Shown here: positions 19,013-32,839 of the stretch, one piece after another
Layout of the letters: each line of letters starts with the position of its first letter
Numbering within the stretch: the stretch's first letter is position 1
Source of the DNA: an uncultured Gallionellaceae bacterium
GTDB lineage: Bacteria > Pseudomonadota > Gammaproteobacteria > Burkholderiales > Gallionellaceae
Length of the DNA stretch: 42,614 bases
Assembly (NCBI GenBank): GCA_903913145.1
Contig: CAIWKC010000439.1
Span: forward strand, 1-42,614
Reading direction: 5' to 3'
Program-made: the position numbers and the translations under genes
Notes under the pieces: generated by a model
Told to the model about the DNA's origin: nothing
Database searches by the model: none
The model's input: only the letters and a program-made list of their open reading frames with translations

Positions 19013-19334
19013 GTAACAGCACCATTAGCGTGAATCTCACTTTGCTATTTGTGCTCGTTCTTCCATTTAAGGAGACAGGCATGCAGAGAAACAGCATCGC
19101 GAATTAATTGGATGGATATTCTCCTTGTCCATTTGTTATTATAACATTTGGCCTAATTTAAAAAAAATTCACCAGTCATTATGTTCGAACTGGTTCTTTT
19201 TGTCCTTTACATTGTTTTACATTGAACAATTCAATTATTTTTTGAAACTAACTTCGACATGATAAAATCATTTTTAACTTAATACTTTTTTAATTGCAGT
19301 TCGGCTTTTCTAAATAATTATAAAATATTGCATC
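19013..19334. other. AT-rich intergenic region between argS and glycosyltransferase
   Basis: This 322-bp divergent gap carries no convincing gene or RNA. It includes AAGGAG (19069-19074) six bases before an ATG opening an 8-codon frame (19081-19107). TCTCCTT (19120-19126) can pair with that AAGGAGA, and GTTATTATAAC forms a short palindrome. The remainder is strongly AT-rich. Promoter-like pairs for the downstream gene include TTGAAA (19242-19247) with TAAAAT (19263-19268), but the 15-bp spacing is short. An alternative -10 TATAAA lies at 19319-19324. Confidence 0.5.
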
Positions 19335-20543
19335 TTGAACTCCCTGAATCAATTCCGTAGAACTATTAATCCGCTACTTCGGGGTCAGAATTTGAATAGT
19401 CGAACTTTTCAGCCAGACAGTCACTCCAAAACTATCCCAGAAAGTTCATATCACTTGATTCAAGTTGTTAGACGATATGGGCCGGTTGGAGGTATGGAGC
19501 GTTATGTTTGGGAATTAACGCTTCAACTTCATCAATTGGGACATCGTGTAACTGTAATTTGTGAGCGTTGTCATACTCCCAAACCCGAAGGAATTTCTGT
19601 CATTGAACTTGGTGAAGTTACCCCTCGCCCGCGTTGGGTGGCTGCTTTGCGTTTTTCCCACCGTGTCTCAGATTGGCTTGCTTCTAATCCGCAACCTGAT
19701 TGCATTGTGCACAGCCATGAACGTATCTATTCTCATGAAATCACCACGTTTCACGGTTCGATTTTTGCAACCGTTACTGAGAAGCCCTGGTGGCGTCTGA
19801 TTTCCCTACGAATTGCAATGCAACTTTATTTGGAAAGGCGCGAGCTTTCCATTGCCAAGGTAATCGTTCCCAATTCCCAATATATCAAGCAAAATTTGTC
19901 TTTTTATTATCCAGAATTCGCCTACAAATTGTCTGAGCCTATTACTCCGGGAGTAACTGCTGTTAACTTGCGTAATTTCCGTTCTGTTCCAAAAGACGGA
20001 GGTATTATCGGCTTTGTCGGTGAAGAATGGAAACGGAAAGGTCTTCCATTCGCGGTTGAGATTGTTAAGCGTTTGCGAGTAACTCGTCCAAATCTTACTT
20101 TTATGATTATTGGGCCTCCTGTTGCTTCAATTAAATATCTGTTTGCCGATTGGCAATCCGGTTTTATTTTGAAAGAGTGGTCTGGGCAAGTAAATTATTC
20201 TGAATTTGATGTGTTATTGCATCCCGCCAAGTCTGAACCCTATGGCATGGTAGTCAGTGAAGCAATGGCCTCAAAACTGCCCGTTGTTATTTCCGATGCC
20301 TGCGGATCTTGCGAAGATGTTTCAACTGATGCTGGCACCATTTTGCCACTGGATTCACCTATCGATTTATGGGTGAACGCGGTAAACAATCAATTAAACA
20401 GGTTTGTTGCAGTGCCCCAATTTTCACGCAATTGGGAAGAAGTTGCCATGCAATATGAAGCGGAATTTCGTTCGTTAGTAAGTCCTGCGCAATCAGAATT
20501 TAGTGATGCAACAATTTCACATCCGGTTGAACTCGTTTCTTAA
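19335..20543 (+). CDS. glycosyltransferase family 4 protein
   Basis: A GT-B fold retaining glycosyltransferase, probably adding a sugar to lipopolysaccharide or another surface glycan. The N-terminal domain has VRRYGPVGGMERYVWEL (acceptor side). The C-terminal domain has IIGFVGEEWKRKGL and the donor-binding EX7E motif in SEPYGMVVSEAMASKLPVV. From the TTG at 19335 it has 402 residues. A second TTG at 19392, preceded by GGGGTC, gives 383, and the start is not settled. It stands alone, without other surface-polysaccharide genes, and is flanked by AT-rich gaps. Acceptor and sugar are unknown. Confidence 0.85.
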   Translation: MNSLNQFRRTINPLLRGQNLNSRTFQPDSHSKTIPESSYHLIQVVRRYGPVGGMERYVWELTLQLHQLGHRVTVICERCHTPKPEGISVIELGEVTPRPRWVAALRFSHRVSDWLASNPQPDCIVHSHERIYSHEITTFHGSIFATVTEKPWWRLISLRIAMQLYLERRELSIAKVIVPNSQYIKQNLSFYYPEFAYKLSEPITPGVTAVNLRNFRSVPKDGGIIGFVGEEWKRKGLPFAVEIVKRLRVTRPNLTFMIIGPPVASIKYLFADWQSGFILKEWSGQVNYSEFDVLLHPAKSEPYGMVVSEAMASKLPVVISDACGSCEDVSTDAGTILPLDSPIDLWVNAVNNQLNRFVAVPQFSRNWEEVAMQYEAEFRSLVSPAQSEFSDATISHPVELVS

Positions 20544-20612
20544 GTAGTTCATCGTTCTTTGCAATTACCTCTTTCTTATCAAGGTTTATCGAAAACACAA
20601 CCGGCAAGTCGC

Positions 20613-21956
20613 TTATGTTTTTTTTACTGCATTTTTATCACTTCCTTTTTTAACGTCACCATGTTGAGCCAACAACACAGAAATCAGTCGCCGATCTGTA
20701 TCTTTAATTCGTGCAATCATCACATTTAAAAAAGCTTTTGCAAAACTTGCCTGTAGCCCGTCGCTTGCCAGTTTGAGCGATTCTCCCTGAATTTCTATCA
20801 GCCTCATATCTGTCAGCGCAGTTACTGAGGCGTGTCTAGTATGCCGGGTATCATCCAGATATGCTATTTCGCCAAAGCAACTTCCAATTTGCATTCGCGT
20901 CAGTTCCACTTCACTTTTCGTTACTTTTACTTCTCCATCGATTATGAGATAAAGGCTGCTGCTTTTCTCGCCTTCTTCAACAATATTTTCACCGCACTTA
21001 ACTTCTAGCCACTGGCTTATTCCAACTGTTTCCCACACCTCGTTGTCGGTGAAGTTTGTGAAGAACGAAAGGTTTCGCAACTCGTCGTAATGCGCGGAAT
21101 TAAAATGTACATTTTCTAGGGTTTCTATATCGGGCAGTGCTGTTGCAAGATCATCGCAAAATGCTTTCCATGTTGCATAACGCATATTTTTGTCACGATG
21201 CATGGCTCGATGTACTGCAAACCTCAAAGCTTGGGGAATATCTAAGCGCCGTTTTTCCAAGGGTAATGCATCTTCATGGAGTTTTTGATAGATCATTTCA
21301 TCATGAGATTTCGCCGTAAACGGCAGCATGCCGGATATCAGTTGATATGCCATGACCCCAACTGCGTATATATCTGACTGGACTGTAGGTCGCCCCTGCA
21401 TGAACTGTTCCGGTGGCATAAAAGGCAGTGTCCCAACTGTATCAACCTGCGTAGTATCCGAATTAAACAGAAAGGCTGCCCCGAAATCTGAGACTTTCAC
21501 TGAATCTTTTTCCCCAAGCAACACGTTACTTGGTTTGATATCACGATGAAGTATGCCCATTTTATGGGAATAATCCAAGGCATTGCACACTTTATAAAGT
21601 ATGTCGATTAGTCGATTCAATGGAAGTAAATTATCAAACGCCGTATATGGTTTTAGAGTTCCTCCTGGCACGTATTCCATTACCAGATAATCGAACTTTT
21701 CTGTACTGCATGCTTCAAAAATTTGAACTATAAATGGGTGTTGAAGTTTTCCGGCTAATCTTGTCTCATTTAGCCACATTTTACGATTTCGCGAACTATC
21801 CTTTAGCTCATTGAATAGTCCTGTGCGAGTAATCTTGAGTGCCACGTCGCGCTGCAGGTAGTTGTCAAATGCAAGGTGTACTTCGCTTGTTGCTCCTCTT
21901 CCAAGTTCTTTACGAATTTTGAAGCGATGTCCAAAATTGTCGTTTTGATTAGCCAT
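20613..21956 (-). CDS. Ser/Thr protein kinase with cyclic nucleotide-binding domain
   Basis: A 447-aa soluble fusion. The Hanks-type kinase domain (about residues 11-275) has the Gly-rich loop GRGATSEV, ATP lysine Lys41 (VALKI), a helix-C Glu near 64, catalytic HRDIKPSN (Asp139), DFG (157-159) and a PPEQF motif in place of APE. It is an RD kinase with all catalytic residues. The C-terminal domain (about 300-425) is a cyclic-nucleotide-binding beta-roll with YLIIDGEVKVT and CFGEIAYLDDTRHTRHASV, the phosphate-binding-cassette region. No membrane span or PASTA repeat is present. It lies 38 bp downstream of the carbonic anhydrase gene. Its substrate and ligand are unknown. Confidence 0.92.
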   Translation of the reverse strand: MANQNDNFGHRFKIRKELGRGATSEVHLAFDNYLQRDVALKITRTGLFNELKDSSRNRKMWLNETRLAGKLQHPFIVQIFEACSTEKFDYLVMEYVPGGTLKPYTAFDNLLPLNRLIDILYKVCNALDYSHKMGILHRDIKPSNVLLGEKDSVKVSDFGAAFLFNSDTTQVDTVGTLPFMPPEQFMQGRPTVQSDIYAVGVMAYQLISGMLPFTAKSHDEMIYQKLHEDALPLEKRRLDIPQALRFAVHRAMHRDKNMRYATWKAFCDDLATALPDIETLENVHFNSAHYDELRNLSFFTNFTDNEVWETVGISQWLEVKCGENIVEEGEKSSSLYLIIDGEVKVTKSEVELTRMQIGSCFGEIAYLDDTRHTRHASVTALTDMRLIEIQGESLKLASDGLQASFAKAFLNVMIARIKDTDRRLISVLLAQHGDVKKGSDKNAVKKT

Positions 21957-21994
21957 GTTTTAAGAAGGTTGAATACTTGGATACTTCAGTGCCA

Positions 21995-22630
21995 TTATAT
22001 ATCTTCAAATCTTTCATTTTCTTTGTTGTATTTTAATAATTGCCCATGTGCAATATCAAAATACCAACCGTGGATTGTTAGTTGACCCGATTCAACTTTT
22101 TCATGAACCCATGAAAAAGTCATCAAATTTTTTAACGAAATCAAAATGGCTCGCTTTTCACATTCTCGCGTTTGAACATCAAACGGTGCTTCTGGCATAT
22201 CTTTTAACACACTTGTTCTGGCACTTTCAACCAAGCACATCCAGTCATCTATAAAAGAACCCGGGACTGTAACTCCGGCAGTTTTCATCAATGTTCCTAT
22301 TCCACCACAATGTGCGTGACCCAGTACGATAATATGTTCAACACCCAGTATGCGTACGCCGTATTCGATGGCTGCTGTGGTGCCATGATGCCCCGCTCTA
22401 CCCTCAACTGGCGGAACTAAATTTGCAACATTACGAATAACAAACAAATCACCCGGCTCGCAATCTAAAACTATTGCCGGATCTACACGTGAATCGCAGC
22501 ATCCTACCACTAGCGTCTTGGGAGTTTGTCCTTCCTTCACCAATTGTTGAAACAGCCCGTCGTTTCGCTCGAAGTGTTGTTCACGAAAGCGCTGAAAGCC
22601 TTCCACTAGAGCTCGCGGGATTTTCTTCAT
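21995..22630 (-). CDS. can: beta-class carbonic anhydrase
   Basis: This 211-aa zinc enzyme interconverts CO2 and bicarbonate in the cytoplasm. The beta-class motifs are complete: CxDSR as CCDSR (Cys44, Asp46, Arg48) and HxxC as HAHC (His105, Cys108), with the [12 protein letters not shown] segment before the second motif. No signal peptide is present. Its ATG overlaps the purC stop by 4 bp. In this cluster it is likely to balance inorganic carbon for RuBisCO and for biosynthetic carboxylations, which is inference from neighbours. Confidence 0.95.
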
Positions 22631-23511
22631 GTTCCTGTCAGGAGCTGTTGTGCTTCACGATATTTATCTGCGGTCTTCTGCAAAACGTCTGAGGGAATGT
22701 GGGGTGCAGGCGGTTGTTTGTTCCAGCCGGAAGACTCCAACCAGTCTCTGACGAATTGTTTGTCAAAGCTGGGCGGATTGCTACCGACTTTATATTGATC
22801 TGCCGGCCAGAAGCGAGATGAATCTGGAGTCAGTGCTTCATCTATAAGATATAAATTTCCTGCGGTATCAACTCCAAATTCGAATTTCGTATCGGCAATT
22901 ATAATTCCTCTGGTCAACGCGTAATTTGCCGCTTCGGTGTACAGTCCTAACGTGGCTACTTTTACTTGTTCTGCGCGTTCATCTCCAAGCAATTTCTTTG
23001 CTTCTTCGAAGGAAATATTTTCATCATGATCTCCCACTGCGGCCTTGGTAGACGGAGTAAATATGGGTTGGGGCAATTTCTCAGCTTCCTGTAATCCTGC
23101 AGGCAATTGGATGCCGCACAATTTGCCCGTCTTCTTGTAATCTTTCCAACCGGATCCCACCAGATAGCCCCGAACAATTGCTTCTATTGGCAAAGGTTTT
23201 AATTTTTTTGTAACAAAAGCACGGCCGCGTACTTGTGCTCGCTCAGCTTCGGTCTTAACTACAGATTCAGGATCGATACCTGTCAAATGGTTTTGTATTA
23301 CATGTTCTAATTTCTTAAACCAGAAATTTGATACGGTCGTTAGAACTTTACCTTTACCTGGAATGGGTGAGGGCAACACCACATCGAATGCAGACAATCG
23401 ATCAGTTTGCACAATCAGCAAATGATCGGCGTCAACTTCGTATAGGTCACGTACTTTCCCCCGATGCAAAAACTTCAGGCTGGGTAAATTTGATTCTTGC
23501 AGTGCTGACAT
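22627..23511 (-). CDS. purC: phosphoribosylaminoimidazole-succinocarboxamide synthase
   Basis: This 294-aa SAICAR synthetase joins CAIR and aspartate using ATP in purine synthesis. Family motifs include [45 protein letters not shown] and the IADTKFEFG and [12 protein letters not shown] segments. It is the longer form (about 300 aa) seen in many proteobacteria and fungi. It follows purE by 12 bp and overlaps the carbonic anhydrase start. Confidence 0.97.
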
Positions 23512-23523
23512 TTTTTCCTCTAG

Positions 23524-24015
23524 TTACAAAGCGGGAAGGGTGGTTGCGGCAATTTGATCCGCTTGTTTCTTCCGATAATGGGTAAGCTTCTGGGCAAGCA
23601 CTTTGTCATTGGTTGCCAACATCGCCACCGCGAATAAACCCGCATTTGCAGCACCGGCTTCACCAATGGCAAATGTGGCTACGGGTATGCCTTTCGGCAT
23701 TTGCACAATTGATAGCAAGGAATCCATCCCTTTTAAATACTTTGAAGGGATGGGTACTCCCAATACCGGCAATATGGTTTTACCGGCAATCACACCGGCA
23801 AGATGAGCTGCGCCTCCGGCGCCCGCGATGAAGCATTGGACTCCTTTTTCACTCATTTCTTTGATGTATTCAAATAGCAGATCTGGAGATCGATGCGCGG
23901 AAATTACTCTTGCATCGAACTCGACACCGAATTCCTGCAGTGCATGTGCAGTCTGTTGCATAATTTCCCAGTCGCTGGCACTTCCCATCACAATAGCAAC
24001 AAGCGGTTTTGCCAT
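23524..24015 (-). CDS. purE: N5-carboxyaminoimidazole ribonucleotide mutase
   Basis: This 163-aa class I PurE converts N5-CAIR to CAIR, the step after bicarbonate-dependent PurK. Signatures are IVMGSASDWE, VISAHRSPD (catalytic His and Ser context) and AGAGGAAHLAGVIA, followed by PVATFAIGEAGAANAGL. The purK gene usually near it is not in this window. It lies 3 bp downstream of fbp and 12 bp upstream of purC, joining purine genes to the Calvin-cycle run. Confidence 0.97.
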   Translation of the reverse strand: MAKPLVAIVMGSASDWEIMQQTAHALQEFGVEFDARVISAHRSPDLLFEYIKEMSEKGVQCFIAGAGGAAHLAGVIAGKTILPVLGVPIPSKYLKGMDSLLSIVQMPKGIPVATFAIGEAGAANAGLFAVAMLATNDKVLAQKLTHYRKKQADQIAATTLPAL

Positions 24016-24018
24016 AAT

Positions 24019-25020
24019 TTATGCGCCCTTATGATAGCCGACAACACGTTCCACTTCATTTTTAGACCCGAGAATAACAGGTACGCGCTGATGTAAACCG
24101 TTTGGTTGCAATTCCATAATTCGTTCGCGTCCTGTTGAACTTATTCCACCTGCCTGCTCGACAATAAAAGACATTGGATTGGCCTCATACATCAAGCGTA
24201 ACTTGCCTGCTTTTCCCGGCTCCTTTGTATCAAACGGATACATGAATATTCCACCGCGAGTCAGAATACGGTGTACTTCTGCAACCATTGAAGCTACCCA
24301 GCGCATATTGAAATTCTTTTCACGGCCCCCGTCTTTACCCTTTACACACTCTTCTACATATCGTTGCACCGGCTCTTCCCAATAGCGCCGGTTAGAAGCA
24401 TTGATCGCGAATTCTTGCGTATCTTCGGGAATTTTCATATTCGGATGTGTCAGCATAAATTCGCCAATGTCACTATCTAAAGTGAAGCCATTTACCCCTT
24501 TGCCCGTGGTAAGTACCAGCATAGTAGATGGGCCATAAAGAGCGTAGCCTGCGCACACTTGTTTAGTGCCCGGCTGCATGAAATCTGCAGCAGTCGGGTT
24601 TGTCACCCCGGCTGGACAACGCAATATTGAAAAAATAGTACCTACAGAGATGTTCACATCTATGTTTGACGATCCATCCAGTGGATCAAACGTAAGCAAA
24701 TATTTTCCCTTGGGGTACTTTGCCGGGATAGGATAAATTTCATCCATTTCTTCCGAAGCCATTGCTGCGAGGTGCCCGCCCCATTCGTTTTCGGCGATAA
24801 ATATATCGTTGGTAATCACATCTAATTTTTTTTGTGTTTCACCTTGGATGTTTTCGCTTCCTGCACTGCCTAATACTCCGATCAATGCACCCTTATTAAC
24901 CGCATGGGCAATTTTCTTGCAAGCTATCATGATGTCATCAAGCAAGTCTGTAAAGTCGCCTGTGGCGCCTGGTATATGGCGTTCTTCTTCGATAATAAAT
25001 TGAATCAGATTTTTGTTCAT
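24019..25020 (-). CDS. fbp: class I fructose-1,6-bisphosphatase
   Basis: This 333-aa enzyme hydrolyses fructose-1,6-bisphosphate (some relatives also act on sedoheptulose bisphosphate), an irreversible Calvin-cycle and gluconeogenic step. The metal site is shown by ASEEMDEI and [20 protein letters not shown], and the C-terminal substrate site by [24 protein letters not shown]. The length is standard. It lies 78 bp downstream of cbbO and upstream of purE in the same direction. Confidence 0.97.
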
Positions 25021-25098
25021 GTTGCTCTCTCCCTTTATAATTTAAATTTAGTTACTCGTGAATTTTACCCGTTTTTGTTACTGCTCTCCATGCTTCTA

Positions 25099-27345
25099 TT
25101 ATTTAACTAAGGACATAAATAGTTGAGGCAATCGCTCCGGTAGCCGTGCAATGTTATCGATCACCGCATATTGTCTGCCAAAGATATCTGCCACATATTC
25201 GTCCGCTTTGGGATCCAGATTGATGCAATACGTGTAGATATTCTGTTGATCCAATTCGCGAACGGCGATACGCGCGTCTTCAATTAGTAGACGCGCATCA
25301 CTGGTATCAATATCTGCCGGTTCACCATCGGTCAACACTAGTAACAGTTTTTTATCGGCTTGCTGGTGGCCGAGATAGTGGCCTGCATGGCGAATCGCTG
25401 CACCCATACGTGTAGAATAATTTGCTTCCATCCCGGCCAAGCGGCCCTTAACGTCATCCCCCCAAGATTCGTTGTAGCCTTTAAAATGCCAGAAACGCAC
25501 ATTGTGACGCGTGTCGGAATGAAATCCTCCAATTGCCAAAGGGTCGCCCATCTGATCTATTGCCCAAGCCAGCAGTGAAACGGCTTCCTGGCTGAGTTCA
25601 AGTTTGGATTGTGTGCAACCTTCCGGCACATCAGCCAGTGACGCTGAAAGATCGAGCAATAGCGATACTGCGACGCTGCGTCCGTCGTGCCGGTGACTCA
25701 TATTTATCCGGGTATCAGGCTGAGCTCCGCTTTTAAAATCGATCAACGAACGGATCGCCACATCCAAATCCAGCTCCGCCCCTTCTTCCTGATAGCGAAT
25801 ACGAACTTTGTTTTGCGGCTTCAGCAGATCGATTATTTTTTTCAGGCGCTTTGCCAGTGCGCTATGCTTTGCGAGTAGTTGATCAATTTTCGCCGGATTG
25901 CCTTTGGGTTGCAGATGTTCATACAAACTTACCCAGTCCGGGCGGTAGTGCTCGGCACTGTAGTCCCATTCTGGATACATGCGTGGTGGTATTTTAAATT
26001 CGTCTTCTGACTCTTGTGGCGGACGCGGGCGCTCTTCATAAACCTCTTCGTCGCCTTCTTCGATGAACAGCCACATCAAGCGGTTGTCGTCGCGATATTC
26101 AACTTCAGTATTGTTGAAATATATTTTGCCGTATGAGTCGCTTGGCACTTTGCTTTCACTTATAAACTGTACTCCCAACATTTGAATGTCGGGTGTACGG
26201 GTATTACCCTTCTCCATTATTTCATTAAAGCGCGCAACGTATTTCAAAATGAGCGGATTGTCATATGTATGGCTAGGATCCAGTAACGCGCGCGACAAAA
26301 TGGCCAAGCGATGCCGAATGTACGAAACGTCAGCATCCTGTTGCAGGTTCTCATTCGGTATCGGATGCAGCTTGCGCCAGATAGAACGCATTCCCGGAAA
26401 TTCCTGTAGCGCCAAATATTCCACCCGCGCATCTTCAAATACTTCAACCGCCATACGTTGAAACGGACTGAGATTATCGGCGATCAATGGTGTCGTCCAA
26501 CGGCGGTGTGCACTCAAATGTGCCAACACGGCGCGATACCGGTCAATGCCGCGCACTCCATTGGGCAAATCATCAAACACATCCGGCAGGTGCAAACCCT
26601 GCTCGTTCAGGTAGGGAATAGGCTTGCGTAGTTCATCGAAATCCAGCGAATAGGGAATAAATTGCACATCATGCAACCACAGCCCGCGCATATATAAATC
26701 CAGCTTGCGTTCGGCATCGTAGAAAAGTGTGCCGTGGCGCTCACGTTGAATAACTGCACGGCTGTCCGCCGTTTTCAGTTGAAAATATTCCCGCTGATGT
26801 TGCGGATCGTTGGGGTAGGCGAGTACTCCGTAATCAACCCACTTTTTTAATCCACCGAGCGGCAGCAGGGATAGCAAATGAGGAACGCTATCCAGAAAGT
26901 CGGGCAAACATTCGCTTGTATACATCGAATCGATGCCATGTACTTTAGGACTGGTGCGAATTGCCGTTTGCACGACAAGATTCAGGTATTCGGTAAACAA
27001 CAAACGGCTTTCCAATGCGCGTGCCGCAGCCCCCAGGCTTTGCAAAAAGTTGGGAATAGCTTTGCTGTTCGGGGATTTAGCCAAGGTGCGAGTAAATGTT
27101 ACGACTTCTTCAATAACTTCCTCGCCTAGCTTTGCTGCAACCTGCGGCATTTCTTCCAGAAAGACCAGTACCGGTTCTTCACCGCGCCCGGTTTTGTTAA
27201 TCGTGTTGGCGCCCACGATGTAAGCATCAATACCGGCAGTACTCAAATACTTGCGGGCATCTGCCATGCAATCATCAAACACACTTTGAACCCGTTTGAA
27301 ATTACATTGCAGTTTTTGGCGTTCTTCTATCGTGGCGGTCATCAC
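25099..27345 (-). CDS. cbbO: RuBisCO activase accessory protein CbbO (VWA domain)
   Basis: This 748-aa protein is the adaptor half of the CbbQO RuBisCO activase, which removes inhibitory sugar phosphates from RuBisCO. A large alpha-helical N-terminal region binds the AAA+ ring. The C-terminal von Willebrand A domain (about 550-748) carries a MIDAS signature DLSAS followed by LVLTDGEPADID. An acidic, Pro-rich linker (EEGDEEVYEERPRPP) precedes it near residue 440. It starts directly after cbbQ with no intergenic space. The pairing with a form II enzyme fits known Q2O2-type systems. Confidence 0.93.
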   Translation of the reverse strand: MMTATIEERQKLQCNFKRVQSVFDDCMADARKYLSTAGIDAYIVGANTINKTGRGEEPVLVFLEEMPQVAAKLGEEVIEEVVTFTRTLAKSPNSKAIPNFLQSLGAAARALESRLLFTEYLNLVVQTAIRTSPKVHGIDSMYTSECLPDFLDSVPHLLSLLPLGGLKKWVDYGVLAYPNDPQHQREYFQLKTADSRAVIQRERHGTLFYDAERKLDLYMRGLWLHDVQFIPYSLDFDELRKPIPYLNEQGLHLPDVFDDLPNGVRGIDRYRAVLAHLSAHRRWTTPLIADNLSPFQRMAVEVFEDARVEYLALQEFPGMRSIWRKLHPIPNENLQQDADVSYIRHRLAILSRALLDPSHTYDNPLILKYVARFNEIMEKGNTRTPDIQMLGVQFISESKVPSDSYGKIYFNNTEVEYRDDNRLMWLFIEEGDEEVYEERPRPPQESEDEFKIPPRMYPEWDYSAEHYRPDWVSLYEHLQPKGNPAKIDQLLAKHSALAKRLKKIIDLLKPQNKVRIRYQEEGAELDLDVAIRSLIDFKSGAQPDTRINMSHRHDGRSVAVSLLLDLSASLADVPEGCTQSKLELSQEAVSLLAWAIDQMGDPLAIGGFHSDTRHNVRFWHFKGYNESWGDDVKGRLAGMEANYSTRMGAAIRHAGHYLGHQQADKKLLLVLTDGEPADIDTSDARLLIEDARIAVRELDQQNIYTYCINLDPKADEYVADIFGRQYAVIDNIARLPERLPQLFMSLVK

Positions 27346-28161
27346 TTACGCCACAAACACCGCATCAATTGCGTGATCCAGAGTATCGCGAATATCAGCA
27401 TCATCTGTAATCGGTCGAACTAATGCCATGCGACATGCATCGCGTGGAGCAATACCTTGTTTAATCAAGGTTGCCGCATATACTAGCAATCGGGTAGAGA
27501 TACCTTCATCCAGCCCGTGTCCTTTCAAGTTACGCGCAGTCTCACCGATTTTTACTAACTTGGCTGATATATCAGCCCCTATTCCAGTTTCTTTACTGAC
27601 GATGCCGATTTCAACTTCTGATTTTGCGTAGTCAAATTCCAAGCCGGCAAAGCGTTGTTTGGTTGACTGCTTCAGATCTTTCATCAAATTCTGGTATCCG
27701 GGATTGTAGGAAATCACCAATTGAAAATCCGGGTGAGCCTGAACGAGTTCCCCTTTTTTATCCAGAGGCAATGTACGACGGTGATCGGTTAGAGGGTGAA
27801 TGACAACCGTTGTGTCTTGACGAGCTTCAACGATTTCATCCAGATAGCAGATCGCACCGTAGCGCGCAGCGAGTGTAAGTGGGCCATCCAGCCATCGAGT
27901 TCCGTTTGCATCCAATAAATAGCGTCCGACCAAGTCGGATGCTGTCATGTCTTCGTTGCAGGCAACAGTGATGAGTGGTTTGCCGAGTTTCCATGCCATA
28001 TGCTCAACAAATCGTGACTTCCCACACCCTGTGGGGCCTTTAAGCATGACGGGTAAGCGTGCCTTATAAGCTGCTTCGTAGAGCGCTATTTCATTACTTT
28101 GCGCCTGATAATACGGCTCTTGCGTAATTTGATATTGCTTGATGTCGAACGTTTCGCTCAT
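27346..28161 (-). CDS. cbbQ: RuBisCO activase AAA+ ATPase CbbQ
   Basis: This 271-aa MoxR-clade AAA+ ATPase forms the hexameric motor of CbbQO. Walker A is GPTGCGKS (about 42-49), Walker B CYLDEI (about 107), with TRLLVYAA and CRMALVRPI in the C-terminal lid. The start was set at the ATG at 28161 because GGAG lies 8 bases before it. Another ATG four codons upstream (28173) overlaps that signal. It is downstream of cbbM past a terminator and immediately upstream of cbbO. Confidence 0.95.
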   Translation of the reverse strand: MSETFDIKQYQITQEPYYQAQSNEIALYEAAYKARLPVMLKGPTGCGKSRFVEHMAWKLGKPLITVACNEDMTASDLVGRYLLDANGTRWLDGPLTLAARYGAICYLDEIVEARQDTTVVIHPLTDHRRTLPLDKKGELVQAHPDFQLVISYNPGYQNLMKDLKQSTKQRFAGLEFDYAKSEVEIGIVSKETGIGADISAKLVKIGETARNLKGHGLDEGISTRLLVYAATLIKQGIAPRDACRMALVRPITDDADIRDTLDHAIDAVFVA

Positions 28162-28210
28162 GCTGTTCTCCATAATTTGATACTTGAGTATTTATGTCGG
28201 GCTGTTCGGG

Positions 28211-28248
28211 TTAAAAAAACCCCTGCAAGAGTTTCCGGCAGGGGCTTC
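28211..28248 (-). terminator. intrinsic terminator after cbbM
   Basis: On the minus strand CCCCTGC (28244-28238) pairs with GCAGGGG (28226-28220) around an 11-base loop, followed by seven T residues and TTAA. It is 20-odd bases past the cbbM stop, so most transcripts should end there, with cbbQO served by read-through or a separate promoter. Confidence 0.85.
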
Positions 28249-28267
28249 TTTTTACACAGCGTTCTGC

Positions 28268-29647
28268 TTACTTGTGAACGCCCAGTTTTTGACGCCATCC
28301 AGGGAATATCTTGTCGGCATCTTTTGGGAAAGACTCGAACGCGCGTGCAAATTCTTTGTGCTCTTTCGCAAATTCGATCGGATCCGCTCCTGCCTTCCAG
28401 CATTCATACGATTGACGAAGTGAAATCGCGCCAGCCGCCGGTGAATCGATGTGGCCGTAAGAACCACCGCCTGCAGTGTTGATCACGTTGCCGTGGCCCA
28501 GATTTTCAAAGAACCCTGGCAGACGCAGCGCATTCATACCGCCGGAGATGATTGGTGTCGTTGGTTTCATGCCATACCACTCTTGATGGTAGAAAGGGCC
28601 ATCAACTGAATCACGTTCAATCATGTAAGCAATGATACGGTCATCTTTGCCGCCTTCCATTTTACCGAATCCCATTGTTCCTACGTGGATGCCGGAAGCA
28701 CCTTGCAGACGGGACATTTTCGCCAATACAAATGCAGTGTAGCCACGCTTGGAAGAAGGTGATGTCACAGCACCGTGACCGGCGCGGTGATAGTGCAAAT
28801 ACTGATTTGGATATTGACGGCGTGCTGTCGTAATCATGCCGGGACCGCCCACATAACCGTCAACCAGGAACGCCACCTTGTCTGCATCCGGGCCAAATGT
28901 TTCAAGCAAGTAATCAGCACGCGCGCACATTTCGTAATGGTCGTCAGCGGTAATGTTAGCTGAAAATAATTTGGCTTGGCCAGTTTCATCTTGCGCACGC
29001 TTCATTGCGTCATAAACGAGGGGCATCACTTTCTTCATTGGGCAGAACACTTGGTTGCCTTGCGGCTCATCGTTCTTGATGAAGTCGCCACCTAACCAAA
29101 ATTGGTAAGCCGCATTCGCAAATGGCTCAGGTCGCAGACCCAGCTTGGGTTTAATGATGGTGCCTGAAATGTATCCACCGTCTTTAATAGGACGGCCAAG
29201 AATGCGCCACATATCAGAAATATCTTTTGCGGGGCCGTCATACAGTTGCAGCATGCGTTGCGGAACGTAGAAATCTTGCATTTGCAGATTTTCAACATCA
29301 CCCATACCTTGGTTGTTACCAATTGCCAAAGTCAGGAAAGAAACGATCATCGCACGGCCATCAGTCACGTTGCGATCAAACAAATCATTTGGATAGGCGA
29401 CTTTCATCACGCCTTTGGCTTCATCGATTTCATATACAAGTGCGTCTACGCCTTTGGTAAAGTCGTCTGTCGTACTCACTTCAACGTTGGTTCCTGTTGA
29501 AGACTCAGCAGCGATGTGAGCGGCCGCTTCCAGGTAACCAACCCCTTTTGCTGGTGTCATCGTATACGCCACCAGAATATGCTTGCCGTTCTTGATTAAA
29601 TCGGCTTCTTTTAAATCCAAATTTGAATAACGTGCTGACTGATCCAT
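28268..29647 (-). CDS. cbbM: ribulose-1,5-bisphosphate carboxylase/oxygenase, form II
   Basis: This 459-aa form II RuBisCO large subunit fixes CO2 onto ribulose-1,5-bisphosphate. Active-site landmarks match the Rhodospirillum rubrum numbering exactly: Lys166 in IIKPKLG and the carbamylated Lys191 in [10 protein letters not shown]. The HYHRAGHGA block and the loop-6 lysine in TMGFGKMEG are also present. No small-subunit gene is present, as expected for form II. A perfect AGGAGG precedes the ATG, suggesting strong translation. The gene is divergent from cbbR and ends at a strong terminator. Confidence 0.99.
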
Positions 29648-29690
29648 GTTTCCTCCTGATTAGTAATCAATGTATTTTCCAACTGGGTGA

Positions 29691-29719
29691 ACTATAGAGC
29701 CAACATATCATAAATAACA
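29691..29719 (-). promoter_or_regulatory. putative cbbM promoter
   Basis: On the minus strand a good -10, TATAGT (29696-29691), has a poor -35, TGTTAT (29719-29714), at 17-bp spacing. A better -35 hexamer, TTGACT (29724-29719), is too far at 22 bp. A weak -35 overlapped by a CbbR box fits an activator-dependent promoter. It lies about 45 bp before the cbbM ATG. Confidence 0.45.
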
Positions 29720-29723
29720 GTCA
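29711..29723. promoter_or_regulatory. putative CbbR box 1 (TNA-N7-TNA)
   Basis: TAA-ATAACAG-TCA fits the TNA-N7-TNA consensus of CbbR and other LysR regulators and overlaps the -35 region of the putative cbbM promoter. It is an imperfect dyad, as expected for a low-affinity activation half of a LysR operator. Confidence 0.5.
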
Positions 29724-29740
29724 ATTATTTTTATATGCAC

Positions 29741-29757
29741 CATAAGCGTTTCTTATG
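29741..29757. promoter_or_regulatory. putative CbbR box 2, perfect dyad
   Basis: CATAAG-cgttt-CTTATG is a perfect inverted repeat whose core TAA-GCGTTTC-TTA (29743-29755) matches both TNA-N7-TNA and T-N11-A. It is centred 32 bp from box 1, three helical turns, placing both on one face. It covers the -10 to -35 spacer of a possible cbbR promoter (TATGAT at 29754-29759), consistent with autorepression. Confidence 0.7.
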
Positions 29758-29771
29758 ATATAAATCGGATC

Positions 29772-30671
29772 ATGTTTCCAATTTCCCTGCGCCAACTTCA
29801 AGTCTTCGAAAGCGTTGCCCGCCATCTTAGCCATTCGCGTGCGGCGGCAGAACTGTATCTCTCCCAGCCCGCTGTGTCTATGCAAATCAAACAAGCCGAG
29901 TCTATAGTTGGCCTCCCCTTGTTTGAGCAACAGGGTAAAAAAATCTTTCTTACCGAAGCTGGCCGCGAAATGTTGCATTACAGCCGTAGTATTTTGCAGC
30001 TTGTTAATGAAATGGAATCGGTATTTGATGAGCTGAAAGGACTTGATCGTGGCCATCTGAATATCTCTGTTGTCAGTACTGCCAACTACTTTATGCCTCA
30101 GCTTCTGGCAACATTTATTCAGTCTCACCCTAAAATTCAAGTGAGCTTGTCTGTTGCTAACCGTGATGCGGTTATCAAGCAGCTTGCTGATAATAGTGCC
30201 GATTTGGCTATTATGGGTCAGCCCCCTGATGGCACGGAAATGCGGGCGGATGCCTTCATGCTGAATCCGCTTGTCGTCATCGCGTCACCTTCACATTCAT
30301 TGTCAAGCGCTAAATTGATTCAGCCACGACAGTTAGCAAATGAAATTTTTCTGTTGCGAGAACGTGGCTCAGGAACCCGCGGAGTGGTTGAGCGTTTTTT
30401 TTCCAAACACAAACTTGCTTTACCATTACACATGGAGATGGACACCAACGAAGCCATCAAACAATCCGTTCAAGCTGGAATGGGCATCGCCATCATCTCG
30501 CAACATAGCATTGAACTGGAATTGGAAACTAAGCGACTGGTTGTGCTCGATGTCGAACATTTTCCAATCCTTCGTCATTGGCACATCGTGCACCGTAAAG
30601 ATAAACGATCTTCAATCGCCGCGCAGGAGTTTGAGCGGTTCTTGCTGGATGCATCTCAAACGATAAAATGA
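29772..30671 (+). CDS. cbbR: LysR-family transcriptional regulator CbbR
   Basis: This 299-aa LysR regulator is expected to activate cbb genes in response to metabolites. The N-terminal winged helix-turn-helix (about 1-65) has LRQLQVFESVARHLSHSRAAAELYLSQPAVSMQIKQ, and the periplasmic-binding-protein-like effector domain covers about 88-299. Divergent placement from cbbM, with two CbbR-type boxes between, supports the name over a generic LysR. The ATG at 29772 lies 14 bp past box 2. Confidence 0.93.
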   Translation: MFPISLRQLQVFESVARHLSHSRAAAELYLSQPAVSMQIKQAESIVGLPLFEQQGKKIFLTEAGREMLHYSRSILQLVNEMESVFDELKGLDRGHLNISVVSTANYFMPQLLATFIQSHPKIQVSLSVANRDAVIKQLADNSADLAIMGQPPDGTEMRADAFMLNPLVVIASPSHSLSSAKLIQPRQLANEIFLLRERGSGTRGVVERFFSKHKLALPLHMEMDTNEAIKQSVQAGMGIAIISQHSIELELETKRLVVLDVEHFPILRHWHIVHRKDKRSSIAAQEFERFLLDASQTIK

Positions 30672-30748
30672 TAAACCGTATAAATTTATATTGAGTTGCC
30701 AGTAATGAGACTATTTAATAAAGACAGTAAATCACCCCTTGCATAAGT

Positions 30749-32839
30749 TCAACTCTTTGTGAGAAGCGCCTCAAATTCAACTATCGGCACGGGCTTGCTG
30801 AACAGGTATCCCTGATATGCCATACAACCTAAATGCTTGAGTAATGATTCCTGAGCTGCATTTTCAACCCCTTCCGCGATGATATTGAGGTGAAAGTTTT
30901 TTCCTAAATCAATCATGGTTTGCACCATAACGGCATCGTTTTGGTCGGATGTCATGTCGCGCACAAAGCTCTGGTCTATCTTTATTTGATCTAGCGGTAA
31001 TTGCTTCAAATACGATAGTGAAGAGTATCCTGTGCCGAAATCGTCCATTGACAACTTGACCCCCAATGCTTTCAGGGCATACATTTTGGATATAACTTCT
31101 GTAACATCCCTCAATACAACACTTTCAGTGAGTTCGATCTTTAAATGCGAAGCATCAAATCCATAAGTATGTAGCAGTGCCTTCACGGTCTCAACAAAGT
31201 CGGGTTGCTGGAATTGCTTTGCACTGACATTAACCGCCAGTGTGAGATGCATTGTTTTTTCTTGTTTTGACCAGATAGCAAGTTGTTTACAGGCAGTTTC
31301 GAAAACCCATTCACCAATTTCTAGAATCAGACTACTTTCTTCAGCAAGAGGAATGAAATCTGCGGGAGAAACTATGCCGCGTAGGGGATGAATCCACCTT
31401 ATTAGCGCTTCTGCTCCTAGCGCACGATGTTCGCTGTCCACCTGAATTTGATAATACAACTGCATCTGTCGCTCAGAAACGGCGCGACGTAAATCAGCTT
31501 CCATTGCTGCACGCATCTCAACTGCCAATTTCATTTCATTGTCAAAAAAACGCACAGCATCCCGACCCGACTCTTTAGCGCGATACATCGCCATGTCGGT
31601 ATGTTTTAGCAAGCTGCTGATCGATACTTCCTCGCCACGATAGATGCTTACACCAATGCTGGCGGAACTGGCATACTCCTTTTTATTGAGATCATAAGGT
31701 GAAATGAGTGCGCGTCGTATTTCTTCGGCAATCTTCGCCACTTTTTGGGTGGCTTGTTGGAAATCAACATCAACAGACTCAAGCAGTACTACGAAATCGT
31801 CTCCTCCCATACGCGCTACCGTGTCTCTGTTGCTCACGCAGTCTTTAATTCGTGTCGAAACTTCAACCAAAAGTAAATCTCCGTACTCATGCCCAAGTGT
31901 GTCGTTTACCGTTTTGAAATTATCCAGGTCGACAAAAAATACAGCGCCAAATAACTGACTAGTTGCTGACGCTGAAAGTGCTTTCTTGATTTTATCTAGC
32001 ATCAAGCGTCGGTTAGGCAGTTTTGTCAGCGTGTCGTGGTAGGCAAGGAAGTAAATTTCAGCGTCATCTATTAGCCGTTGATCATGTCCTATTTTTTCTC
32101 GACTGGATACCACTCCCAATCCAATGAGGCCAAACAGCCAAATCACACCATGGGTCAAAGATAATTCATATACCCGCTTTGATTGTTCTTCAGTGTACGG
32201 TCGCATTTTTACATAAGCACCGATTCCTCCACGAACTTCACCAGCCTTATAACCTTGTATAGCGTGACACTTGAGGCAGCCCTCCGTTATGAACAATGGT
32301 TTCATCAATCGTAAATAGGTCACATCACCTATGTTGGCAACTTCCATCAGTTCATTTGCACCTTGCTCAAAGCTTTTCAGCGCTTTGATTTCCCATTCGT
32401 CGGGTTTGTTATTGGGGTTTAAAAGCTTCAGGCTGGTAAGGTGACTCAAGTCCAATTTGTTTCCATTGAAATCATCCTGAACTTCCCTAATTACATAGGC
32501 AGGGTTCATCAATGTCAGCTTCATGCCAGTGGTGGTGACAACATCACGATCTGGGACTTTTAAATAGGGGTTGGGAGGAGTATGAGCCGACGGCTGAACA
32601 TAGATGCCACCGTGAGAGCCTACCCAATCGCGAAAACCTATATCTTTGGCAAGACTTGCGCGAGCAACTGCAGCAGCATTGTTTAACGTATTATGTTCGA
32701 GTTGATGGAGAGTCCATAGCAAGGAGCCTCCCAATAAGAGAGTCCATCCTACAAATATGTAAAGATATTTACGAAACATAATATTGTTTTCGTCGTTAGG
32801 CTTTATTTCCAAAATTGGTTGAGAATATTTGCCATTCAT
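30749..32839 (-). CDS. GGDEF-EAL c-di-GMP protein with DUF3365 haem-type sensor
   Basis: A 696-aa membrane signalling protein. A membrane span (about 24-44) is followed by a periplasmic DUF3365 domain with a c-type haem motif CLKCH (Cys188, Cys191, His192), a second span (about 240-256), a GGDEF domain (about 270-430, motif GGDDF) and an EAL domain (about 440-696). EAL catalytic residues look intact: EALIRW, VNVSAKQ, ELTES, DDFGTGYSS, IKIDQSF and AEGVE. The GGDEF motif is plausible, but the inhibitory RxxD site is replaced by SNRD. It may degrade and/or make c-di-GMP in response to redox or gas binding, which is inference. An alternative start at Met21 would remove a polar N-terminal tail. 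Confidence 0.93.
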   Translation of the reverse strand: MNGKYSQPILEIKPNDENNIMFRKYLYIFVGWTLLLGGSLLWTLHQLEHNTLNNAAAVARASLAKDIGFRDWVGSHGGIYVQPSAHTPPNPYLKVPDRDVVTTTGMKLTLMNPAYVIREVQDDFNGNKLDLSHLTSLKLLNPNNKPDEWEIKALKSFEQGANELMEVANIGDVTYLRLMKPLFITEGCLKCHAIQGYKAGEVRGGIGAYVKMRPYTEEQSKRVYELSLTHGVIWLFGLIGLGVVSSREKIGHDQRLIDDAEIYFLAYHDTLTKLPNRRLMLDKIKKALSASATSQLFGAVFFVDLDNFKTVNDTLGHEYGDLLLVEVSTRIKDCVSNRDTVARMGGDDFVVLLESVDVDFQQATQKVAKIAEEIRRALISPYDLNKKEYASSASIGVSIYRGEEVSISSLLKHTDMAMYRAKESGRDAVRFFDNEMKLAVEMRAAMEADLRRAVSERQMQLYYQIQVDSEHRALGAEALIRWIHPLRGIVSPADFIPLAEESSLILEIGEWVFETACKQLAIWSKQEKTMHLTLAVNVSAKQFQQPDFVETVKALLHTYGFDASHLKIELTESVVLRDVTEVISKMYALKALGVKLSMDDFGTGYSSLSYLKQLPLDQIKIDQSFVRDMTSDQNDAVMVQTMIDLGKNFHLNIIAEGVENAAQESLLKHLGCMAYQGYLFSKPVPIVEFEALLTKS

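Follow-up and report, generated by a model that had tools for sequence, protein, structure and literature searches.

A kinase with a C-terminal cyclic-nucleotide-binding domain behind a carbon-fixation and purine gene block in Gallionellaceae

A stretch of 42,614 nucleotides from an iron-oxidiser relative, an uncultured Gallionellaceae bacterium (the window; the genome has 3.6 Mb in 439 contigs) raises the question of whether a cyclic nucleotide may control a bacterial protein kinase and whether that kinase may act on carbon fixation. The range 20613-22630 consists of two genes. One encodes a Ser/Thr (Hanks) kinase that has a single cyclic-nucleotide-binding (CNB) domain at its C-terminus (20613..21956, minus strand, 447 aa from an ATG start), and the other a beta-carbonic anhydrase (CA; 21995..22630, minus strand, 211 aa from an ATG start) that stops 38 bp short of the kinase start. 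An earlier note had described a rare, PKA/PKG-like kinase directly after a CA in a carbon-fixation run, and had proposed a loop from inorganic carbon through a cyclic nucleotide to the kinase. From sequence we established the domains, the motifs, the gene position and its conservation, the cyclases of the genome and the cyclase neighbours of four related kinases. Judged on these, the chances are about even that the window protein would be an active kinase gated by a cyclic nucleotide.

The domain anatomy that the note gave, a catalytically complete Hanks kinase followed by a CNB domain, was confirmed by the open reading frame, by Pfam and by a motif check. Pfam places Pkinase at residues 13-255 (E 1.9e-48) and a single cNMP_binding stretch at residues 318-394 (E 3.2e-14), the latter being the PF00027 match at C439:20775-21005 on the minus strand. 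The catalytic motifs comprise a glycine loop from G19, K41, E64, HRD at 137-139, N144 and DFG at 157-159, with both D139 and D157 present and APE replaced by PPE; the catalytic Lys, HRD, Asn and DFG that mark Hanks-type bacterial Ser/Thr kinases are all in place. The label PKA/PKG-like fits less well. In PKA and PKG the CNB domains precede the kinase or belong to a separate regulatory chain, they number two or more, and a pseudosubstrate lies near them, whereas the window protein has a single CNB domain behind its kinase, the reverse of the PKG order. A basic pseudosubstrate (two basic residues, any residue, then A, S, T or G) was sought in the linker at residues 276-317 and none was present; the only such pattern in the protein is KKGS at 436, near the C-terminus. 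A structure prediction based on a two-sequence alignment reached a pLDDT of 29, and the model was unusable.

The layout is also not rare. The kinase finds a match at 1e-20 in 152 of 158 Gallionellaceae genomes, and in about 96 of them by hand count (about 60%) the best match is 2e-90 or better; the Gallionellaceae matches listed down to 2e-90 all cover both domains. Across the order, 165 of 399 sampled genomes have a match at 1e-40, and those listed, being the best of them, again span both domains. Since the matches in the family and across the order extend over both domains, the layout is common in the order. A class-wide sample of 369 genomes searched at 1e-100 gave no match besides the window's own genome, at a limit so strict that most of the sister clade described below would fall under it. 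Of the 874 records matched in a plasmid search, one covered 80% or more of the kinase in a single place, at 24% identity. The window genome itself has 12 kinase matches and 15 CNB matches, 14 of the latter over the cut-off. It encodes three kinase-CNB proteins (on the window contig C439, C336 and C412) and one with the CNB domain in front, on C207. This last protein (G000:C207, about 170-2795; L064, L084, L151) has about 875 residues, a C-terminal Hanks kinase and a middle part that by eye resembles a SpoIIE-type phosphatase; the contig also encodes a cyclase and a CRP-like protein, at a distance of about 8 kb.

In a tree of 58 kinase-CNB rows, the window protein falls in a clade of 24 rows (clade A, support 100/100), apart from the 34 rows of the common type (clade B); the tree program warns of long branches, among them those of L024 and one more row meeting the clade B rows. 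Within clade A, the window protein and seven orthologues, six from genus g1 and one from genus g9, form one group (100/100), in which identity to the window is 81-87% over the kinase and 58-67% over the CNB domain. The rest of clade A consists of ten rows from genus g2 and six others (G286, G023, G040, G052, G511 and G458). Paired genes of this type occur as well. At L132 (G001:C13:376113-378852) two clade A kinase-CNB genes stand in tandem on the same strand, about 190 bp apart, and in four other Burkholderiales (L127-L130, from G180, G195, G230 and G302) two facing kinase-CNB paralogues flank a stretch of 10-11 kb whose content matches only partly between genomes.

Whether the CNB domain could still bind a ligand depends on its pocket, and the key residues for cAMP or cGMP binding that the note wished to see checked are intact. 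The window retains F361-G362-E363 and R374 (in R-x-A-S-V), the phosphate-binding cassette of the ligand-binding subset of CNB domains. Glu363 and Arg374 are invariant in all 15 aligned CNB domains, and the corresponding Glu and Arg are present in 23 of the 24 clade A rows. In clade A row L053 (G003:C30) the Arg is lost and the Glu is changed to Asp, and this row is a natural candidate for a ligand-blind form. Among the eight orthologues, the CNB domain varies faster than the kinase, and its invariant positions are concentrated in the phosphate-binding loop and the C-terminal helix. When a profile of these CNB domains was compared with solved structures, PKG and PKA regulatory CNB domains came first (best E 6.3e-41). 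Compared with PKG, the phosphate-binding loop has two extra residues. The residue after the Arg is Ala, Ser or Thr in PKA, CRP and PKG; the window protein has His there, and the seven orthologues have Leu.

A second indication comes from the genes beside related kinases. In four of the 24 clade A kinases (L056, L057, L058 and L140) the adjacent co-directional gene encodes a CHASE2 class III cyclase, upstream of the kinase in G023 (L056) and downstream in G040 (L057), G052 (L058) and G286 (L140). The four kinases account for four of the six clade A rows outside the window group and genus g2, and none is an orthologue of the window kinase. Two cyclase types and both gene orders are represented: the cyclases of G040, G052 and G286 share 51-84% identity with one another, while that of G023 is about 26-31% identical to them and 42% identical to a cyclase of the window genome, L003. 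The chance of finding a cyclase within 2.5 kb in four of 24 cases is about 1e-4, or 2e-3 with L057 and L058 counted once, by a post hoc estimate from the cyclase density of the window genome. No cyclase adjoins the window kinase, its seven orthologues, the ten g2 kinases or L118/L119 within loci of unequal length, some of them cut by contig ends, and none occurs in the 15 loci fetched from the 34-row sister clade; the linked cyclases were themselves among the sequences that went into the cyclase profile used on the loci. The reciprocal test covered 20 other loci with relatives of the linked cyclases (16 of the 28 other L057-type matches listed and four L003-type relatives, several near contig ends), and in none of them was a kinase or a kinase-like CNB protein the neighbour. 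Nor does a kinase stand beside L003 in the window genome itself (L149, at a contig end). The linked cyclases carry Gln or Ser, by eye, in place of the usual substrate-specifying Lys, so their product is uncertain.

The surroundings of the window kinase bear out the placement given in the note, directly after a beta-CA (a gap of 38 bp, both genes on the minus strand) and within a carbon-fixation run. The CA has a Pro_CA domain at residues 39-198 (E 6.1e-46), CxDSR at 44 and HxxC at 105, as expected of a beta-carbonic anhydrase. Its start is overlapped by 4 bp by purC (SAICAR synthetase; 22627..23511, from the open reading frame and Pfam), which is preceded by purE (AIR carboxylase; 23524..24015, Pfam), fbp (fructose-1,6-bisphosphatase; 24019..25020, Pfam and named family profiles), a VWA protein (25099..27345, Pfam VWA) called CbbO-like from its position beside CbbQ, CbbQ (27346..28173, Pfam AAA_5 and CbbQ_C) and CbbM (28268..29647), all on the minus strand. 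CbbM was assigned by NF010002 (907 bits), which we take from its name to be form II RuBisCO. The gene order is thus cbbM-cbbQ-cbbO-fbp-purE-purC-CA-kinase, with the kinase at the 3' end, and genes for aldolase, pyruvate kinase, PGK, GAPDH and transketolase lie further upstream beyond RuBisCO. Between the RuBisCO and aldolase genes, at 30749-32839 on the minus strand, there is a GGDEF-EAL protein with a Tll0287-like domain, so c-di-GMP signalling is also present in the run. Counts of promoter-like sites (16 against 20.3 expected) and terminator-like sites (15 against 12.8 expected) in 19300-30800 were uninformative.

Comparison with relatives indicates which part of this arrangement is old. The block of cbb genes, fbp, purE, purC and CA is found widely across the family with no kinase behind it, and the kinase was added in one lineage. 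Around the 30 best CA loci, viewed with about 1.5 kb on each side (together with L131, which is the G114 contig again), purC adjoins CA in all 30, and the kinase follows CA in seven, all from g1 and g9. The kinase is absent from all 15 further block regions, G114 included; eight of them (L197-L200, L204 and L206-L208) have cbb genes, at least cbbQ-cbbO, ahead of fbp-purE-purC-CA, and the other seven hold a partial block, in which the window's cbb genes are missing or a contig end intervenes. In G123 a YKWVD protein and an exonuclease III-like gene come directly after CA, and the same two genes, matched by eye, lie beyond the kinase in five of the seven orthologue loci (L042-L046), which indicates that the kinase came in, together with a few further genes, between CA and these two; the insertion into the older block is placed most simply in the common ancestor of g1 and g9.

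Within these two genera the kinase stands in the block in eight of nine genomes. Counting the window, it lies behind purC in all eight orthologues, with CA in between in seven and without CA in G118, and cbbM lies upstream in six; the contig ends first in G117 (beyond cbbQ) and in G118 (in purC). In the ninth genome, G114 (80% complete), CA is followed by other genes, no kinase relic was detected within 6 kb (best hit 9 residues, E 5.7), and the best kinase match elsewhere in the genome is only 1.3e-87. The linkage in relatives therefore stands as far as the position behind purC goes, while the tie between CA and kinase is confined to two genera. We rejected CA and kinase as a conserved pair because, within the genus, G118 has the kinase but no CA, and G114 has CA but no kinase at that place. 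In view of the same two genomes the note's reading of CA as a meaningful partner of the kinase is not supported, and CA is better explained by the purine and carbon block than by the kinase.

As for the signal, the search for class III cyclases suggested by the note did find them, with eight cyclase domains in the window genome. Five of these (L003, L004, L005, L006 and L008) show by eye the Lys/Thr substrate pair that is typical of class IIIb cyclases, the type for which bicarbonate stimulation has been reported. Among solved structures, the L003 cyclase best matches CyaB 3r5g and 2w01, and it also matches 1wc0 (3.5e-27), which we take to be CyaC, and the human type 10 (soluble) adenylyl cyclase 4cm2 (3.2e-13). 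Weaker relatives of L003 (E 1e-60) occur in 117 of the 158 genomes; close ones (E 1e-170 or better) occur in just six, in g1 only in the window genome and G120, and an L003-type cyclase was rejected as a general partner of the kinase on that count. Contig C250 of the window genome holds a 525-aa open reading frame (L160:807-2381, minus strand) with a C-terminal kinase by Pfam, whose N-terminal stretch scores 66 bits against our custom cyclase profile and matches no Pfam cyclase family. Elsewhere in the same genome, a glucose-6-phosphate dehydrogenase carries a C-terminal CNB domain (G000:C104:39397-41220, plus strand, L080; Pfam G6PD_N, G6PD_C and cNMP_binding), and the fusion also occurs in G120 (L213). 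A relative of this enzyme at 1e-100 is present in 20 genomes, and in these two alone the match extends over the CNB part; for the relatives listed in the 18 others the alignment stops at about residue 470 of 608. Independently of the kinase, the fusion hints at a connection of CNB domains with central carbon metabolism here.

The reading that we favour joins these observations. A cyclic mononucleotide, cAMP or cGMP, from one of the genome's class III cyclases would bind the C-terminal CNB domain, and this binding would gate the single-chain kinase, whose gene joined the older cbbM-cbbQ-cbbO-fbp-purE-purC-CA block in one Gallionellaceae lineage. Having been added behind that block, the gene would probably be co-transcribed with the carbon-fixation and purine genes, and the kinase would phosphorylate proteins of that metabolism. 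Ligand binding, gating, co-transcription and the substrates of the window kinase are what we infer here, and they do not share one degree of confidence; that the substrates lie inside the carbon and purine block is doubtful. The CNB domain might instead be a structural or dimerisation module, or bind some other ligand, with the kinase regulated in another way. Its faster evolution, its longer phosphate-binding loop and the unusual residue after the Arg would suit such a role, and failure to bind cNMP is common among bacterial CNB domains. We nevertheless consider it rather unlikely, given that all but one of the 24 clade A rows retain the Glu and Arg, that PKG and PKA CNB domains are the closest solved relatives and that four relatives have a cyclase neighbour.

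A stronger competitor concerns the location, namely that a cyclic-nucleotide kinase landed behind CA in the ancestor of the two genera and was kept there by synteny, unrelated to carbon fixation. We give this a probability only slightly short of even. The block is widespread without the kinase (none in 15 regions, seven of 30 CA loci), the synteny on both sides of the insertion is kept in L042-L046, and in genus g2 the closest kinases have genes of no evident relation as neighbours (by eye recQ, pntA and rimO). On the other hand, gene order and strand are kept in all eight orthologues, even in G118, which lacks CA, and in the window and G120, whose downstream side differs, and the alignment ends of the kinase and of the preceding gene are 35-136 bp apart. 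Far less probable is the complete loop that the note envisaged, in which bicarbonate would stimulate a class IIIb cyclase whose product would drive the kinase to phosphorylate CbbM, CbbQ or CA. The Lys/Thr pairs and the structural matches of L003 are in its favour, as are passages of PMC10117731 that describe cAMP reporting carbon supply through SbtB in cyanobacteria; the linkage dispenses with CA in G118, the CA block occurs without the kinase, and close relatives of L003 are few. Inorganic carbon as the signal for the kinase is improbable in our judgement, and bicarbonate in that role is speculative. The gated kinase remains the reading we prefer. In its widest form, which is a long shot, single-chain kinases gated by a cyclic nucleotide would have arisen separately in Burkholderiales, with a sensor that follows the kinase domain and, for some of them, a CHASE2 cyclase as partner. 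One Gallionellaceae lineage would have put such a kinase into a carbon-fixation and purine operon, where inorganic carbon, through class IIIb cyclases, would raise a cyclic nucleotide that sets the phosphorylation of CBB or purine enzymes, and this in a genome with a second tie of the kind, the CNB domain fused to glucose-6-phosphate dehydrogenase.

The kinase-CNB type is common yet apparently uncharacterised. Among the CC-licensed PMC papers listed in our literature searches, no title or abstract reports an experimentally shown cyclic-nucleotide-gated bacterial kinase. A Gallionellaceae pangenome study describes form II RuBisCO as commoner in iron oxidisers and lists a CRP-like/MscK cluster (PMC10734462); in its main text the terms 'carbonic anhydrase' and 'cyclic nucleotide' are absent, and the one 'protein kinase' passage is the name of that cluster. 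With intact pockets, cyclase neighbours in one clade and a presence in about 60% of 158 genomes, a bacterial equivalent of PKA/PKG becomes directly testable, and the window member is a test case for such a kinase touching carbon fixation.

When compared with known systems, the window protein shares with PKG (for example 5dyk, 5ezr and 4rz7) the kinase and CNB on one chain and the Glu and Arg of the phosphate loop, and PKG CNB domains give the best score with the CNB profile (6.3e-41); it differs in its CNB domain being behind the kinase, in having one such domain instead of several, in a loop longer by two residues and in a linker without a basic pseudosubstrate motif. Its kinase domain has PknB as the closest solved chain (8.7e-42), but unlike kinases of the PknB/StkP type it has a CNB domain instead of PASTA repeats (Pfam), and it scores 247 bits with the PASTA kinase model, far below the cut-off of 450. 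The other Burkholderiales kinase-CNB proteins, C336 and C412 included, have the same domain order and a similar length and match in both domains, but are only about 33-42% identical to the window protein and form a separate clade (100/100), and the 15 loci fetched for them have no cyclase and no shared cbb, pur and CA cluster. In Planctomycetota, an association of CNB domains with Ser/Thr kinases is implied in a passage of PMC11032199, a likeness that consists of this mention in print. The cyanobacterial SbtB, as passages of PMC10117731 describe it, is a PII-like receptor and not a kinase, but it likewise ties a cyclic nucleotide to inorganic-carbon metabolism.
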